From positions 1,550,001-1,614,000 of the forward strand of contig NZ_CP054706.1 in assembly GCF_016495865.1 (NCBI RefSeq): a stretch of 64,000 nt of DNA. Direction: 5' to 3'. The translations under genes and the position numbers were made by a program. This document shows, in pieces, positions 5,013 to 37,959 of the stretch. This stretch comes from Salicibibacter cibi (GTDB lineage: Bacteria > Bacillota > Bacilli > Bacillales > Marinococcaceae). The notes beneath the pieces were generated by a model. That model was not told where the DNA came from and did not search any database. It saw only the letters and a program-made list of their open reading frames with translations. Within the stretch, counting starts at the first letter, position 1; each line of letters begins with the position of its first letter.

Positions 5013-5033
5013 TTTCTCCAACTCCTCTTTTTA

Positions 5034-5125
5034 GCAGGAAAGAAAGTTGATTTATACTTTCTTTCCTGCATAAGTGCAACGAAGGCTTTCGCCATTATAG
5101 GTTGGCGAAAGGCCAAGTTTTCTAA
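5034..5125 (-). repeat. Two-hairpin dispersed repeat, copy 1
   Basis: One member of a ~95-bp family with two adjacent stem-loops. In the family's forward sense it reads: AGAAAACTTGG, hairpin 1 (TTTCGCCA/TGGCGAAA), a linker like TTGCACTTATGCA, then hairpin 2 (GCAGGTAAGAAAG/CTTTCTTACCTGC). This copy is reversed on the plus strand, so it is forward relative to serA, and it lies directly upstream of the serA ribosome binding site. Hairpin 2 carries compensating changes (GCAGGAAAGAAAG/CTTTCTTTCCTGC). Confidence 0.85.
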
Positions 5126-5185
5126 ACGCTCTGATGTATCAAAGCCTAGCGTATGTAAAAATCCCCCGAGCGTAGGGGGTTCCCA

Positions 5186-6393: not shown

Positions 6394-6401
6394 GTGTGAT
6401 G

Positions 6402-6494
6402 TTAGAAAACTCGGCTTTTCGCCAAGCTTTTATGGCGAAAGCCTTCGCCCAACTTATGCAGGTAAGAAAGTTGATGTATACTTTCTTACCTGCC
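6402..6494 (+). repeat. Two-hairpin dispersed repeat, copy 2
   Basis: Forward copy directly after the ypbF-like gene, with hairpin 1 TTTTCGCCA/TGGCGAAA and a perfect hairpin 2 GGCAGGTAAGAAAG/CTTTCTTACCTGCC in the usual order. A terminator follows 10 bases later. Confidence 0.9.
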
Positions 6495-6503
6495 AAGAAG
6501 GAA

Positions 6504-7585: not shown

Positions 7586-7681
7586 GGCAGATAAGATAAG
7601 TATGAATCAACTTTCTTACCTGCATAAGTTGGGCTGAGGCTTTTCGCCATAAAAGCTTGGCAAAAAGCCAAGTTTTCTAAC
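7586..7681 (-). repeat. Two-hairpin dispersed repeat, copy 3
   Basis: Reverse copy between the sirtuin and MecA-type genes. Hairpin 2 has lost some pairing (GGCAGATAAGATAAG against CTTTCTTACCTGC), while hairpin 1 (TTTCGCCATAAAAGCTTGGCAAAAA) and the end AAGTTTTCTAA are conserved. Confidence 0.85.
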
Positions 7682-7784
7682 CGAAAAGGGCAAGTGACTT
7701 GCGCTTTTAAAGAACGAGAATAAGACCTGTTGAATAACGTATAGAAAAGGCCGGGAAAGGCTGGGTCCAAAAGGAGGGGCGGTT

Positions 7785-8396
7785 ATGCGCCTGGAACGGA
7801 TCGCCGCTAATAAAATAAAAGTGTTTCTAACCTTTGATGATTTAAAAGAACGCGGGTTAACGAAAGATGATTTATGGATGGATCGCCCTCGCGTCCATCA
7901 ACTATTTCGTGATCTTGTGATGGAGGCTGATGCTTCACTCGGCTTTAAGGCCGACGGAACGCTGTCCGTCGAAGTGTTTGCTTTGCCGGCGCAAGGCATG
8001 GTCATTCATATTTCCAAGACGGAAAACGATCATGAAGATGATGATATGATTGAAATGGATATCACCGTAGATGAACGGCAGGATTTATTTTATAAATTTC
8101 ATGATCTAGAGGCAGTATTGCAACTCGTTGCTTTATTAACCCGAATTGGCGTTAAAAACGGTTCGTTCATGTCCATGGATGGGCAATATTATCTTTGCTT
8201 TCCGGTGAGCACGCGCTATTTTTTAGGATATGACCGTTTCGTCGCCCTCATCTCCGAGTTCGGGGAAGCTTGTCCTCATTCGCCCGTCGTCGTGAAAGAA
8301 CACGGGTCATTGCTTATTGAAAAAGAGGCGGTAGCTGTGTTGGCAAGTGCCTTTGGTTTCGGAACCGAATCTGTGGAAATCGAACCCGATTTTTAA
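7785..8396 (+). CDS. MecA-family adaptor protein (YpbH/MecB type)
   Basis: Adaptor that hands substrates to the ClpC ATPase. It has the MecA layout: an N-terminal substrate domain (MRLERIAANKIKVFLTFDDL ... GLTKDDLW), an acidic linker near residues 80-95 (NDHEDDDMIEMDI), and a C-terminal domain with YYLCFPVSTRYFLGYDRFVA that would bind ClpC. Length of 203 residues fits YpbH or MecA. Position next to a gudB-like gene matches ypbH rather than mecA of B. subtilis, where YpbH affects competence and sporulation. AGGAGG lies 10 bases before the ATG. Confidence 0.85.
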   Translation: MRLERIAANKIKVFLTFDDLKERGLTKDDLWMDRPRVHQLFRDLVMEADASLGFKADGTLSVEVFALPAQGMVIHISKTENDHEDDDMIEMDITVDERQDLFYKFHDLEAVLQLVALLTRIGVKNGSFMSMDGQYYLCFPVSTRYFLGYDRFVALISEFGEACPHSPVVVKEHGSLLIEKEAVAVLASAFGFGTESVEIEPDF

Positions 8397-8494
8397 TATA
8401 GTTAAGATGAACCATTACAAGCGAGCAAGTATTTATGAATTGTGATTGGGGATCAATCACTCCCAATCCAATGAACCGCACGGAGGTGACCCTG

Positions 8495-9772
8495 ATGGGG
8501 GAAGAATCGGTGGTTGATTCCGATGAAGAAAAAAGCCATCATCGCTTAACAATCATGCAAGAGCTTATGGTTTCGTCTCTAAAAAAATGGGGGTATGGAT
8601 CTCAAGTTCATGCATTGCTTAAAGAGCCGCTCCGAACGCTTGCCGTTCGAATACCCATAAAATTGGATAGCGGGAAAACCAAGATCTTCACCGGTTTCCG
8701 TGTCCAACATAATGATGCGATTGGACCGGGGATCGGAGGAGTGCGATTTCATCCCGAAGTGACGGAAATAGATGTTCAGGCACAGGCGATGTGGACATCT
8801 CTGCAAGCGGGGGTCATCGATATTCCATATAGTGGAGCGAGTGGCGCAATTGTGTGCAATCCAATGGAATTGTCCTTTCGTGAACTTGAAGCATTGAGTC
8901 GCGGGTACGTTCGGGCCATTATCTCTTTTATCGGACCGACAAAAGATGTCATTGCTCCCGATGCCGGAACCAATACACAAATGATGGCATGGATGCTCGA
9001 TGAATGCAGCCAGTTAAAAACAGATCACTCTCCCGGGTTTATGAGCGGAAAATCGCTGATTTTAGACGGATCGCCCGGAAGGGAAGCGGCTGTCGGGAAG
9101 GGGATCTCGATCACAGCCAAGTCAGCAGTCAAGCGCAGGAAACTTTCGTTGGGAAAGGCCAGTGCCATTATTCATGGCTTCGGAAATGTAGGGACGTATG
9201 TTGCCAAAACATTGAACGATGCCGGAGTAACGATCGTCGGTATCTCCGACGGCCATGGCGCGCTGTACGATCCTGATGGGCTTGATGTGGATTACTTAAT
9301 GGATCGCCGCGATAGCTTTGGGATGGTTACGAACCTTTTTAAAAAATCGATTTCCAAAAATGAACTGCTTGCAAAGGATTGCGATATAATCGTTGATTCT
9401 TCCAGAGATCAAAAGAAGTTAACGTCTCAAGACGTTGAAACAATAAAAGCAGGTATTTTTATCGAAGCCGGCAAGGGAAAGATAACGGGAGAAGCAAGCG
9501 CCCGTTTGCATCAACGTGGGACATGCGTGATCCCTGATCTTTTGACGAGTGCCGCTAACACTGCCACCTCTTATTTTGGATGCGTCCAAAGTAACCAAGG
9601 CTACGTTTGGACAGAAGAAGAAGTGAATCACAAATTGGAAGAGATATTGGAACGGGCATTGACATTGATTGTTGACGCATCGCACAGCCGCAGTGTAAAT
9701 ATGCACGAAGCCGCCCATATGATCGGAATTCAAAAAATGGCGGCAGCAAGCCGTTTGCGCGGATGGGTATAA
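8495..9772 (+). CDS. Glutamate dehydrogenase homologue lacking catalytic lysines (GudB-like pseudoenzyme)
   Basis: Homologous over its full 425 residues to NAD-dependent glutamate dehydrogenase (GudB/RocG) and located where B. subtilis has gudB. The Rossmann motif HGFGNVGTYVAKT and the segment FRELEALSRGYVRAI are retained. Key substrate and catalytic positions are altered. The usual AKGGIRFHP reads GIGGVRFHP (Lys to Ile). SLKCGIVDLPYGGGKGG reads SLQAGVIDIPYSGASGA (Lys to Gln, and the catalytic Lys to Ser). EAANGPTT reads EAGKGKIT, and the conserved ASAGGV reads TSAANT. The Asp in IAPDAGTN is kept. Deamination of glutamate is therefore unlikely. The frame is intact and uses GGAGGTGAC before ATG 8495. 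A regulatory or binding role is inferred: active GDHs also act as regulators (for example of GltC). Confidence 0.88.
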   Translation: MGEESVVDSDEEKSHHRLTIMQELMVSSLKKWGYGSQVHALLKEPLRTLAVRIPIKLDSGKTKIFTGFRVQHNDAIGPGIGGVRFHPEVTEIDVQAQAMWTSLQAGVIDIPYSGASGAIVCNPMELSFRELEALSRGYVRAIISFIGPTKDVIAPDAGTNTQMMAWMLDECSQLKTDHSPGFMSGKSLILDGSPGREAAVGKGISITAKSAVKRRKLSLGKASAIIHGFGNVGTYVAKTLNDAGVTIVGISDGHGALYDPDGLDVDYLMDRRDSFGMVTNLFKKSISKNELLAKDCDIIVDSSRDQKKLTSQDVETIKAGIFIEAGKGKITGEASARLHQRGTCVIPDLLTSAANTATSYFGCVQSNQGYVWTEEEVNHKLEEILERALTLIVDASHSRSVNMHEAAHMIGIQKMAAASRLRGWV

Positions 9773-10049: not shown

Positions 10050-11042
10050 TTGATACAAGAGAAAATTGTTATCATTGGCGCCGGTCCATGTGGATTGGCG
10101 GCCGCAATCGCTTGCAGGGAAAAAGGATATGATCCCCTTGTCATTGAAAAAGGAAATATTGTCTCCGCCATTTATCACTATCCGACGCATCAAACCTTTT
10201 TCAGCACTGCCAATAAACTGGAGATCGGGGAAGTTCCTTTTATTACGGTAGACCGTAAACCTAGGCGAAGCGAGGCACTTGCATATTATCGGGAAGTCGT
10301 CGAACGAAAACAATTGCGTATCCATACGTATGAAGCCGCAAAAAGCATCCGAAAAACAGAGGATGGAACGTTTGTGGCGGAAACAACGGCTAAAGGGAAA
10401 AAGAAAGCCTATCATGCCGACTATGTAATAATGGCGACAGGCTACTATGATCGTCCGAATGAACTTGGTTGCGAAGGGGAGGACCTCCCCCATGTTTACC
10501 ATTATTTTAAAGAATCCCACCCTTTCCATAGACAAAATGTTGTCGTGATCGGAGGGAAAAATTCAGCGGTTGATGCTACATTGGAGCTGGAAAAAGCGGG
10601 AGCAAATGTCACCGTTCTATACCGGGGAGAGACGTATTCATCAAGCATTAAGCCGTGGATTTTGCCTGAGTTCGAAGGGCTTGTCCGCAAAGAAAGCATA
10701 CGGATGGTATTCGGTGCAAAGGTGACCCGCATAACCGAAAAAAGCGTTTATTTTGAGAAAGACGGCCGGGAAAATGAACTGGACGCCGATTTCGTGTTCG
10801 CGATGATCGGTTATCACCCTGATCATCCGTTTTTAACAGCGGCCGGTGTGGGGATTGACGGAGATACGGGAAGGCCATTTTATGATCCGGAAAGTTACGA
10901 AACGGATGTCCCGGGTCTTTTTATCGCAGGTGTGTTGGCAGCCGGCAATAATGCGAATGAGATTTTTATTGAAACAGGAAGATTTCACGGTTATCGGATT
11001 GTGGATAAAATTGCAAACAGAGAAAATGTAAAGCGAACGTAA
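10050..11042 (+). CDS. ypdA: Bacillithiol disulfide reductase
   Basis: FAD- and NADPH-dependent reductase (Bdr) that returns oxidised bacillithiol to its thiol form. The FAD motif GAGPCGLAAAIAC near residue 10 keeps the cysteine typical of YpdA. A second nucleotide motif, VVVIGGKNSAVDATLEL, lies near residue 165, followed by a C-terminal FAD motif in DVPGLFIAGVLAAGNNANEI. Length of 330 residues matches the family. The start is TTG at 10050, with GGAGGAATAG upstream. It is followed after 13 bases by an asparaginase gene. The bacillithiol synthesis gene bshA is present at 60.8 kb, so substrate is expected to exist. Confidence 0.92.
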   Translation: MIQEKIVIIGAGPCGLAAAIACREKGYDPLVIEKGNIVSAIYHYPTHQTFFSTANKLEIGEVPFITVDRKPRRSEALAYYREVVERKQLRIHTYEAAKSIRKTEDGTFVAETTAKGKKKAYHADYVIMATGYYDRPNELGCEGEDLPHVYHYFKESHPFHRQNVVVIGGKNSAVDATLELEKAGANVTVLYRGETYSSSIKPWILPEFEGLVRKESIRMVFGAKVTRITEKSVYFEKDGRENELDADFVFAMIGYHPDHPFLTAAGVGIDGDTGRPFYDPESYETDVPGLFIAGVLAAGNNANEIFIETGRFHGYRIVDKIANRENVKRT

Positions 11043-11055
11043 GGGGCTTCGAGCG

Positions 11056-12027
11056 ATGAAAAAAATTGCATTGGTCACGACCGGGGGGACGATCGCAAGC
11101 AAAAAGACAGACGGAGGACGCTTGCGTGCCGGGGAAAGAAGCGGTGAAGAACTCGTCGATATGTGTGACGTCCCTTTTAAGTTGGAGTTAGAAATTGTTT
11201 CATTGTTTAACAAACCATCCATCCATCTCGGTTATGAAGATTTATGGCAATTAAAGGCGCATATTGAAGATTTGTTGCTACAGAAAGGAATCGATGGTGC
11301 GGTCGTTACTTCCGGGACAGATACGTTGGAAGAAGTCGCTTATTTTCTGGATTTGACGGTGGAGAACGAAAAGCCTCTTGTCGTTACAGGTTCACAACGA
11401 GGTCCGGATCAAGTGGGAAGTGATGCATTTGTTAATTTGCGAAATGCCATGATCGTCGCTGCCGATGAACAGGCTACCCGGCTTGGTTCGGTTGTCGTTT
11501 TTAATGACCATATTTTTTCTGCAAAATATGTACAAAAAACGCATGCTTCTAATGTACAAGGGTTTCATGCACCGGGATACGGATACTTCGGCATGATTGA
11601 CAATGACCGCGTCAATCTTTATCAACGGCCGCTTTATCGCGATATTTATAAGCCGAAAACCAAGAGGGGGAACTCTCGATCCCAAGTAGAAATTATCAAA
11701 ATCCATTTAGGTTCGTCGCCGTCTTTGCTACGGCTTTTGCTGGAAATGGGGGCGACGGATGGTGTCGTCCTTGAAGGGTTGGGAAGAGGACAAGTTCCAC
11801 CGGCTTTCATGCCGTTGATTGCGAATGCCCGGATCCCGATGGTCGTTACGACGAGCGCAAACGAAGGCGAGGTCTATCCTGCGTATGAATATGAAGGAAG
11901 CACGTATGACCTGATGAATCATGGGGTCATTTTAGGGAAGGATTATAGTAGCCGAAAAGCAAAAATAAAACTGCATGTGCTTTTGGAAACCGGTGTTACG
12001 GAGATTCAGGAAGCGTTCAGTAAATAA
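11056..12027 (+). CDS. L-asparaginase
   Basis: Hydrolyses L-asparagine to aspartate and ammonia. The first catalytic threonine lies in VTTGGTIASKKT near residue 8, the second in TSGTDTLEEVAYFLDLT near residue 80, and the conserved loop is TGSQRGPDQVGSDAFVNLRN. The C-terminal domain contains GVVLEGLGRGQVPP. Length is 323 residues. There is no signal peptide, so it should be cytoplasmic. It lies 13 bases after ypdA, probably in one transcript. Whether it is closer to AnsA or AnsZ of B. subtilis is unclear, so no symbol is given. Confidence 0.9.
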   Translation: MKKIALVTTGGTIASKKTDGGRLRAGERSGEELVDMCDVPFKLELEIVSLFNKPSIHLGYEDLWQLKAHIEDLLLQKGIDGAVVTSGTDTLEEVAYFLDLTVENEKPLVVTGSQRGPDQVGSDAFVNLRNAMIVAADEQATRLGSVVVFNDHIFSAKYVQKTHASNVQGFHAPGYGYFGMIDNDRVNLYQRPLYRDIYKPKTKRGNSRSQVEIIKIHLGSSPSLLRLLLEMGATDGVVLEGLGRGQVPPAFMPLIANARIPMVVTTSANEGEVYPAYEYEGSTYDLMNHGVILGKDYSSRKAKIKLHVLLETGVTEIQEAFSK

Positions 12028-12034
12028 TAGAGAA

Positions 12035-12152
12035 GAACTTCCACCAGAGGGGCTCTTCCTCTGAATGAAGGAAGTCGGTTAAAACCGTCACGTCCTGTGA
12101 CAACGCCGACACTAGCCCATCCTGGGCGTCGAAAACGTTAGTGCCGGCATAT
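12035..12152 (+). ncRNA. Bacillaceae-1-like RNA, copy B (two intact RUCCU hairpins)
   Basis: Two short hairpins with loops matching RUCCU: GTCAC-GTCCT-GTGAC (12087-12101) and GCCC-ATCCT-GGGC (12115-12127). The second is extended by CGAC/GTCG across an ACTA bulge. The Bacillaceae-1 RNA motif is described as two stem-loops with RUCCU terminal loops in Bacillaceae, which this fits well. An upstream hairpin near 12040-12066 (CCAGAGG/CCTCTG) is shared with copies A and C. It lies between the asparaginase gene and a small putative zinc protein. Confidence 0.75.
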
Positions 12153-12589: not shown

Positions 12590-13885
12590 ATGGCTATTAT
12601 ACCACAAATGAGCTTATTTTCATGGGAAGATCTTGCGGATCTTGGAGATTTGGAACGCTTACGTTTGGTGCTCGATTATTTACCGGATGAAGCGTTGATG
12701 CGAACGTTGGAGAAAAAACGATATAAAGGGCGAAATGAATACCCTGTTCGCGCGATGTGGAATACGATGCTTGCAGGGGTTGTCTTTGAGCACACATCGA
12801 TTGAATCATTGCGTCGGGAATTGAGCCGCAATGGACAGCTACGCGAATTGTGTGGCCTCACCGTGATCGTGCCCCCTGCTTATGTATATACGCGCTTTTT
12901 AAAAAAGCTGCGGGCGCACGAATCAAAGGTTGAAGCGATTTTTGAAACGATGGTGGAACAATTGAGCGAGCTCCTCCCTGATTTCGGGAAGGCCCTTGCG
13001 ATCGATGGTAAGGCAGTAGACTCTTTTGCGAAGGGAAAACATAAGGATGAGGATCCTGACGGACGCCGTGATACCGATGCCGATTATGGGAAGAAAGAAT
13101 ATAAGGGGAAACACAAAGACGGGACGATCTGGAACAAAGTGATCAAATGGTTCGGCTATAAAATCCACCTGATCGTCGACGCGGCCTATGAATTGCCTGT
13201 GGCTTATTCAGTTACGAAAGCATCGGTGCCCGATATTAACGCCGGTCATGATATGATCAATGAGCTTGAAAAAGAACGCCCTTGGCTTTTGGGACAAGCA
13301 GAAACACTCGCCGGTGATCGCGGTTACGATGACACCAAAATGCTTGAGCGGCTGTGGGATGACCATCAAACCAAGCCTGTCATTGATATCCGGGACATGT
13401 GGAAAGATGGCGAGGACACGCGCCAACTGATGGACATTGAAAATGTCACGCATGACTATAAAGGCACCGTGTACTGTCACTGCCCGATGACCGGGAAAGA
13501 GCGCGAAATGGCGAATGGGGGCTTTGAGAAAGATCGAGCCACCCTCAAAAAGCGTTGTCCGGCCAAACAATATGGCATCACCTGTGAAGGACAAGCGGAG
13601 TGTCCGATTGCCCAAGGAATTCGGATTCCGCTCAAGGAGGACCGCCGGATCTTCACACCGATCGATCGAGCCAGTTACACATGGGCGAAGGCATACGCGA
13701 AACGAACGGCCGTGGAACGTGTGAACAGCCGGCTTGACGTCTCCTTTGGCTTCGAACAGCATACCACACGCGGGCAAAAGAAGATGAAAATGAAAACTAG
13801 GTTGGCTCTGTGCACGATGTTGGCGATGGCTTTAGGCCATATCCAAGAAGGCCGCCCGGAAAAAATGCGAAGCTTGGTTTCCTAA
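12590..13885 (+). mobile_element. Insertion-sequence transposase (DDE type, IS1182/IS5-like)
   Basis: 431-residue transposase, apparently intact. The N-terminal region (about residues 45-95: YPVRAMWNTMLAGVVFEH, SIESLRRELSRN, RELCG) is a DUF772-type domain. DDE-type catalytic positions are likely the Asp in LAIDGKAVDSFAKG, the Asp in LAGDRGYDDTKM, and the Glu in KRTAVERVNSRLD. A cysteine-containing insert (CHCP ... CPAKQYGITC) lies between. Start ATG 12590 has GGAGGG upstream. I could not find convincing terminal inverted repeats or a target duplication, so the element limits are open; they lie within about 12341-14110. A hairpin ACCAGG/CCTGGT at 14035-14052 may end its transcript. The IS sits between the small zinc-protein gene and the methionine operon. 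Confidence 0.85.
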
Positions 13886-14172: not shown

Positions 14173-14340
14173 TTCTTATCAAGAGAGACGGAGGGAAAGG
14201 TCCAAAGATGTCTCAGCAACCAGCTCATCGGAGTCAGGTGCTACTTCCTTCGGAACGGTGGTTCCGGACGATAAGAAGATGCATTCATCACTGGCAGTGC
14301 TTTCTTCTTATTCGATTCACAAGAAGAGGGCATTTTTTAT
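14173..14340 (+). promoter_or_regulatory. SAM-I riboswitch (S-box) with terminator
   Basis: Aptamer: P1 TTCTTATC (14173-14180) pairs with GATAAGAA (14270-14277). The conserved cores AAGAGAGACGGAGGGA, CTCAGCAACC and AGGTGCTAC are all present. Expression platform: a terminator stem TGCTTTCTTCTT (14298-14309) with AAGAAGAGGGCA (14321-14332), then TTTTTTATTTT. The antiterminator is visible as ATAAGAAGA (14271-14279) pairing perfectly with TCTTCTTAT (14303-14311). With SAM bound, P1 holds the first strand and transcription stops; at low SAM the antiterminator forms and the two methionine genes are read. Confidence 0.95.
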
Positions 14341-37759: not shown

Positions 37760-37959
37760 ATCCCGGTGGTAAGCGCCCGTAATCTCAGAAGTCAGAAAAG
37801 ACCTTTTCCGGAAACGAGGAATGATCGGAAAAGCGGGCGCTAAACCCCTATTGCGACGCACAGGATGTGCTAGTGTCGGCGTTGCCACAAGACGTGGCGG
37901 TTTTAGCCGGCGTTCCTTAAAACCATCAGGGGAAAAACCCCTCTGATGGAAGTTTCACT
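37760..37959 (-). ncRNA. Bacillaceae-1-like RNA element, copy C
   Basis: Reverse complement of the element in copy A, conserved end to end from GTGAAACTTCCATCAG to ACCACCGGGAT. Read on the minus strand it has GCCAC-GTCTT-GTGGC (37898-37884) and GCAC-ATCCT-GTGC (37870-37858), the latter extended by CGAC/GTCG. One loop fits RUCCU exactly, the other differs by one base. It lies antisense between cheR and aroC. Confidence 0.7.

Follow-up and report, generated by a model that had tools for sequence, protein, structure and literature searches.

Can the regulatory role of a glutamate dehydrogenase (GDH) persist without catalysis? The Bacillus subtilis GDHs RocG and GudB are reported to have second, regulatory roles, acting on and controlling GltC (PMC6794564; PMC10938345), and GltAB is described as binding and inactivating GudB (PMC10938345; PMC9522360). 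The question is raised here by a gene within a window of 64,000 nucleotides from Salicibibacter cibi (genome of 3.81 Mb in one contig), which encodes a GDH homologue devoid of the three lysines characteristic of these enzymes (referred to below as lysine-less). Laboratory mutants of RocG were reportedly used by Gunka et al. in 2010 to look at regulation versus catalysis. The present case is a natural experiment over four genera, in which the catalytic residues are gone, the gene has stayed and the known partner GltC was not found, and it makes a non-catalytic GudB function directly testable. In their titles and the beginnings of their abstracts, the open-licence PMC papers listed by the searches describe no such GDH, those on Salicibibacter, Geomicrobium and Natribacillus included. 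Annotations as 'glutamate dehydrogenase' at this locus may stand for proteins without that activity.

The gene, its ribosome-binding site and the codons concerned are the following:

8482–8489, plus strand: Shine-Dalgarno sequence GGAGGTGA of gdh, the same in all four aligned Salicibibacter genomes
8495–9772, plus strand: gdh of the gudB locus, 425 amino acids, very probably a pseudoenzyme (PF02812 and PF00208 over cut-off; alignments)
8732–8734, plus strand: codon 80, Ile replacing K89 (alignment)
8804–8806, plus strand: codon 104, Gln replacing K113 (alignment)
8840–8842, plus strand: codon 116, Ser replacing the catalytic K125, Ser in all eight intact lysine-less orthologues
8960–8962, plus strand: codon 156, Asp retained (equivalent of D165), Asp in seven of the eight intact lysine-less orthologues and Glu in S. 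kimchii

The numbering of K89, K113 and K125 is taken to be that of the Clostridium enzyme. The frame is open with no internal stop, and its ATG start at 8495 is unchanged across the four aligned Salicibibacter genomes. The product belongs to the ELFV dehydrogenase superfamily (PF02812, 143.8 bits with a cut-off of 25.3; PF00208, 166.4 bits with a cut-off of 23.4), and in the PDB it matched GudB and RocG of B. subtilis best (E 2.6e-139 or better), aligned from residue 7 or 17 through the C-terminal end with 46–48% identity, the closest being GudB from the GltAB-GudB complex (7mfm). When aligned with GudB (7mfm, 3k8z) and RocG (3k92), the protein has GPGIGG for GPTKGG, SLQAGV for SLKCGI and SGASGA for GGGKGG, so that of the residues expected in a GDH the three lysines are missing and only the Asp corresponding to D165 is present. 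The same alignment showed EAGKGKIT for EAANGPTT and TSAANTATS for ASAGGVTVS, with the Asp of APD and the GFGNxG motif retained. The description given in the initial annotation (lysines exchanged for Ile, Gln and Ser, the motifs EAANGPTT and ASAGGV altered, the catalytic-region Asp kept, frame and ribosome site intact) was thus accurate. The protein also missed the NCBIfam GDH equivalog cut-off (best 340.8 bits against 750), which carries little weight since these models are archaeal or NADP-type and a lysine-keeping GDH (L037) scores under the cut-off as well.

The nearest homologues were found in Salicibibacter cibarius (84% identity), S. halophilus (81%) and S. kimchii (75%). Among the 120 homologues listed, 114 keep K,K,K,D at the positions of the three lysines and the Asp, and the remaining six comprise this protein and the five closest to it, from S. 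cibarius, S. halophilus, S. kimchii, Natribacillus halophilus and Geomicrobium halophilum, which have Ile or Leu, Gln and Ser instead of the lysines. Chance or sequencing error behind the lysine loss is excluded, as five other named species carry the same changes. A profile search brought 80 new proteins among the 120 matches listed, all of them K,K,K,D. The pattern K,K,K,D was present in 292 of the 305 proteins gathered from the matches listed, and all three lysines were lost in the manner of this clade only in the protein studied, P0002–P0006, P0121 and P0122. A single additional genus, with the genomes G010, G018, G023 and G026, has I, H or Q, and S at the same locus. Altogether, a locus gdh with none of the three lysines occurs in 10 of the 29 family genomes, and these ten represent four genera and one clade. 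In a midpoint-rooted tree of 33 proteins, the eight intact lysine-less proteins and P0122 were split off by a branch with support 100/99. The D165 equivalent is Glu in both S. kimchii and P0122. A contig scan with the single protein yielded two loci only.

The genes adjoining gdh in a conserved order are:

7785–8396, plus strand: mecA-type adaptor gene, upstream neighbour (PF05389, syntenic)
10050–11042, plus strand: ypdA-type pyridine nucleotide-disulphide oxidoreductase gene, downstream neighbour (PF13738)
11056–12027, plus strand: asparaginase gene, third gene of the conserved order (PF00710)

The PF13738 gene downstream of gdh is presumably ypdA and is so named here. The order mecA-gdh-ypdA-asparaginase, close to which lie serA and a sirtuin gene, was found in four Salicibibacter genomes, Natribacillus, G007, G010 and G018, and the same four-gene order was found in the lysine-keeping genome G014. 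Since mecA lies directly upstream and the mecA-gdh-ypdA core is also present in Sutcliffiella halmapala (L036), the gene appears to occupy the gudB locus, as the initial annotation had said in placing it beside a MecA-type adaptor, and by both sequence clade and locus it is a gudB orthologue. When 1.5 kb flanks were examined, gdh adjoined ypdA in 19 of the 29 family genomes (ten lysine-less, six K,K,K,D, two K,K,K,E in G009 and G017, and one K,Q,K,D in G012) and not in the other 10. Ten genomes are thus without a locus gdh while ten others keep the gene minus its lysines. Two of the genomes with no gdh beside ypdA (G019 and G027) carry a GudB-type gene elsewhere.

Several other elements were noted in the window. 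A DDE transposase gene (12590–13885) lies between the asparaginase gene and a Cys/Met operon and was not seen at this place in three other Salicibibacter genomes. A SAM riboswitch (14173–14277) precedes the genes for a Cys/Met PLP enzyme and for a fusion of homocysteine methyltransferase with MTHFR. The search for RNA elements gave no match within gdh, and two Bacillaceae-1 RNAs were located at 12064–12128 (plus strand) and 37857–37922 (minus strand). Three intergenic copies of a dispersed repeat of about 90–100 bp, perhaps a MITE, are found near the locus (5027–5128, 6401–6500 in inverted orientation, and 7598–7683).

Departures from K,K,K,D also occur outside the clade: K,Q,K,D in G012, K,K,K,E in G009 and G017, K,E,K,D in P0225, M,K,K,E in Bacillus sp. 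JCM 19034 and in P0200 of Halalkalibacter hemicellulosilyticus, and I,R,Q,D in P0157, which has also lost all three lysines but with other replacements. The odd gdh adjoins ypdA in G012, G009, G017 and JCM 19034. In the last of these (L035, 5932–7221, same locus) the GDH is an independent odd copy and highly diverged, with K89 replaced by Met and D165 by Glu. As the odd copies, all but P0225, are placed in the tree apart from the lysine-less clade, several of them on long branches, the sequences suggest that GDH residues were probably lost more than once in these relatives. Scans for the gene order with P0200 and P0157 (397 genomes each) revealed no close relatives of the two (best identity 48% and 66%), and K,K,K,D was kept in all 35 loci fetched, which were the best matches and no random sample; odd copies thus seem to be rare.

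Selection on the lysine-less gene was estimated in two ways. Pairwise maximum-likelihood omega, in a run to which the longest ORFs contributed some upstream codons, was 0.35, 0.20, 0.23, 0.23 and 0.24 for five Salicibibacter pairs, 0.09 against Natribacillus, 0.07 for G006–G007 and 0.04 for G010–G018. The branch model covered 418 codons in 16 genomes; of the 19 that have a locus gdh in this family, G012, G023 and G026 were dropped. With a background omega of 0.027 (eight genomes, K,K,K,D in six of them and K,K,K,E in two), it assigned 0.214 to the branches within Salicibibacter, 0.255 to S. kimchii, 0.042 to the G010/G018 tips, 0.114 to their stem and 0.095 to the deeper lysine-less branches; omega on deep branches is rough because three deep branch lengths hit the bound. 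An omega of 1 was rejected in all four lysine-less classes tested (0.04–0.26), namely Salicibibacter, S. kimchii, the deeper branches and the G010/G018 tips (LR 161, 45, 398 and 201). The G010/G018 tips did not differ from the background (LR 2.0), whereas the deeper branches did (LR 35.6). Catalytic residues lost in combination with omega below 1 across species make the protein very probably a pseudoenzyme under selection. Both the sharing of the substitutions by orthologues and the purifying selection that the initial annotation had looked to were found. Neither neutral decay nor retained lysines, which it had held to count against its reading, appeared within the clade; the lysines are kept at the locus in 6 of the 19 genomes that have a gdh there, more distant ones.

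The constraint is unevenly distributed over the protein:

8615–8929, plus strand: substrate and oligomerisation domain, residues 41–145, with all three replaced lysines (omega 0.10, tightest in Salicibibacter)
9170–9394, plus strand: adenosine (ADP) half of the dinucleotide fold, residues 226–300, with GFGNVGTY and GISD (omega 0.13)
9395–9574, plus strand: nicotinamide side, residues 301–360, with the clade-fixed P301D, A303S and A351T (omega 0.34)

With shared branch lengths, regional omega in Salicibibacter was heterogeneous (LR 50.9, p 9e-10), with 0.10 for residues 41–145, 0.126 for 226–300, 0.34 for 301–360 and 0.48 for 361–425, each significantly below 1, and omega of 1 was rejected for these four regions in each of three lysine-less sets. 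Heterogeneity was also detected in G006–G007 (p 3e-6) and G010–G018 (p 0.018), where omega was low throughout and highest in the N-terminal 40 residues. The control pair G015–G021, with little divergence, showed no significant heterogeneity (p 0.37). Identity among the six core lysine-less proteins was 0.85 in residues 76–145, 0.81 in 226–300 and 0.60 in 301–350. From both the regional omega and the identity mosaic it follows that the region of the three lost lysines is among the best kept. Of the nicotinamide-side residues, three of the eight intact lysine-less proteins keep the Asn of AAxxNQ and none keeps that of EAANG. The NAD fold, said to remain, is thus preserved in its adenosine half and not on its nicotinamide side.

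Ten positions are fixed in all eight intact lysine-less proteins for residues found in none of 132 lysine-keeping relatives, which are partly redundant and were taken as active by assumption. Six of these replacements (S116, N122, I153, D301, S303 and T351) fall in what we take to be the old active-site motifs. The equivalents of R205 and S380 are retained in all eight.

On balance, we favour the reading that the protein is a nucleotide-binding GDH scaffold which lost catalysis once, in situ, and was kept in a non-catalytic role. It rests on the loss of the lysines with an intact frame, the confinement to one clade, the conserved position, the purifying selection, which in Salicibibacter weighs most on the substrate domain and the ADP-binding half, and the ten shared changes. 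A GudB-type GDH would have lost its activity at its own locus in the ancestor shared by Salicibibacter, Natribacillus and the Geomicrobium group, after which the gene would have been kept as that of a non-catalytic protein. This protein is predicted still to form the GDH hexamer and to bind an adenine nucleotide through the retained half-site, its lysine-free pocket may perhaps take a new small ligand, and it would act by binding a putative partner in nitrogen or redox metabolism, which would not be a recognisable GltC, nor GltAB in every member. It might be described as the 'trigger' half of a trigger enzyme minus the enzyme. Against this reading, lysine-keeping GDHs and, in the Salicibibacter pairs, the neighbouring genes are more tightly constrained, the D165 equivalent has become Glu in S. 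kimchii and P0122, the frames are broken in G023 and G026, two Salicibibacter regions could not be told from neutral when fitted separately, and no neighbour gene names a partner. A binding or regulatory role had been suggested for this copy; purifying selection and shared substitutions speak for it, and the partners then named found no support. The protein resembles GudB and RocG of B. subtilis in locus type, fold and the identity to their solved structures given above; unlike it, those two are active, have all three lysines and have the partner GltC. A further GDH-like protein, Staphylococcus aureus YwlG, is described as a possible pseudoenzyme in glutamate metabolism, about half the size and 11% identical to GudB homologues (PMC9522360).

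More tentatively, the gudB orthologue of these halophiles could have turned into a dedicated sensor or scaffold, whose refitted pocket reads an adenine nucleotide together with a ligand and controls a partner. This proposal builds on the pocket without lysines, on the six clade-fixed active-site replacements and on a lineage without GltC. The sensing of NAD(H) suggested earlier is half plausible, in that the adenosine half is conserved and the nicotinamide half is not.

It is rather unlikely that the lysine-less GudB still docks on GltAB as in the counter-enzyme complex of B. subtilis, steadying or tuning it. Such binding is documented for GudB there (PMC9522360; PMC10938345), among solved structures the GudB from this complex comes closest, and the GltA central domain was found in 26 of the 29 family genomes, including 9 of the 10 lysine-less ones (the copy in G026 is in pieces with stops). 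The domain is missing, however, in S. kimchii (G001), G009 and G012. S. kimchii and G012 lack the small subunit, which was searched in 13 genomes, and S. halophilus (G002) carries it split over two frames. S. kimchii gave no gltA or gltB match at all (S. cibi itself has gltAB), which excludes GltAB as a partner common to all members, and yet the omega of the S. kimchii tip is not significantly higher than that of its congeners (LR 0.6). With gltA missing in three genomes and the split small subunit in S. halophilus, some members of the family seem to be losing their glutamate synthase.

Equally doubtful is the reading that the pocket was rebuilt for a new role in catalysis or ligand sensing; in its favour are the ten clade-fixed replacements, six of them in the presumed old active-site motifs, and the retained equivalents of R205 and S380. 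The nicotinamide side and the C-terminus evolve loosely in Salicibibacter, though, unlike a working redox site, and the neighbouring genes suggest no substrate. A change of the amino-acid substrate alone is unlikely since a distant ELFV protein of S. cibi (L048), which no NCBIfam model names as a LeuDH, keeps K113 and K125.

The precedent for a regulatory subunit in a mixed hexamer with an active GDH is GdhA of Thermus thermophilus, a leucine-responsive GDH homologue without catalysis, kept for regulation and reported to work in a 4:2 hexamer with the active GdhB (PMC9570180). Candidate partners do exist: besides the lysine-less protein, S. cibi encodes two GDHs in which the three lysines are intact (L046, an NADP-GDH by NF006929 over cut-off, and L047), and G007 additionally carries the lysine-keeping GudB-type L037. 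Nevertheless, L046 and L047 are 25–28% identical to the lysine-less protein and neither is of the GudB type, and 9 of the 10 lysine-less genomes, that of S. cibi included, have no second GudB-type match at E 1e-50. This rules out an obligate mixed hexamer with GudB and leaves the mixed hexamer put forward in the initial annotation without support and improbable. Moreover, unlike Thermus GdhA, the lysine-less protein is a gudB orthologue in place.

That the gene is a relic in slow decay is still less probable. Speaking for it, omega exceeds that of GDHs with their lysines, and in pairs of Salicibibacter genomes it amounts to 1.2 to 5 times the value of the neighbour genes (0.06–0.19). The frames are broken in G023 and G026. 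The C-terminal half is loosened in Salicibibacter, and when its regions were fitted separately, neutrality was not rejected for residues 301–360 (0.68, LR 1.4) and 361–425 (0.59, LR 2.9); these fits are superseded by the one with shared branch lengths, in which the contrasts are milder (0.34 instead of 0.68 for 301–360). The rejection of omega of 1 in four branch classes and in four regions of three lysine-less sets nevertheless largely refutes a neutral relic, omega is only 0.04 in G010/G018, and in G023 and G026 a neighbour is likewise split or gltA is broken or short, so that sequencing error is likely there. The protein is comparable to cryptic GudB-CR of B. subtilis 168 as an apparently inactive gudB product. 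GudB-CR is, however, reported to owe its inactivity to an 18-bp repeat and to be unstable and degraded (PMC6794564; PMC4285742), whereas the lysine-less GDH carries point replacements fixed over four genera.

Finally, regulation of GltC, the partner first proposed by analogy with RocG and GudB, can practically be dismissed, as a GltC orthologue was found in none of the 10 lysine-less genomes, where the best LysR match had E 1.1e-44 or worse, unless a very divergent LysR protein took over. With a query that we take to be the B. subtilis GltC sequence, orthologues were found in 11 of the 29 family genomes (49–59% identity, E 4e-98 or better; three with a stop within the match), and genera g2, g11 and g12 were also without one in this search. 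No LysR gene, judged by size and N-terminus only, was recognised beside gltA in 11 gltAB loci of 11 genomes. In 10 of its 11 genomes, the exception being G011, the GltC orthologue has another PF02812 gene no more than about 2 kb away (loci L136–L143 and genomes G016, G022 and G025), and in this family GltC may control that nearby GDH rather than gltAB.
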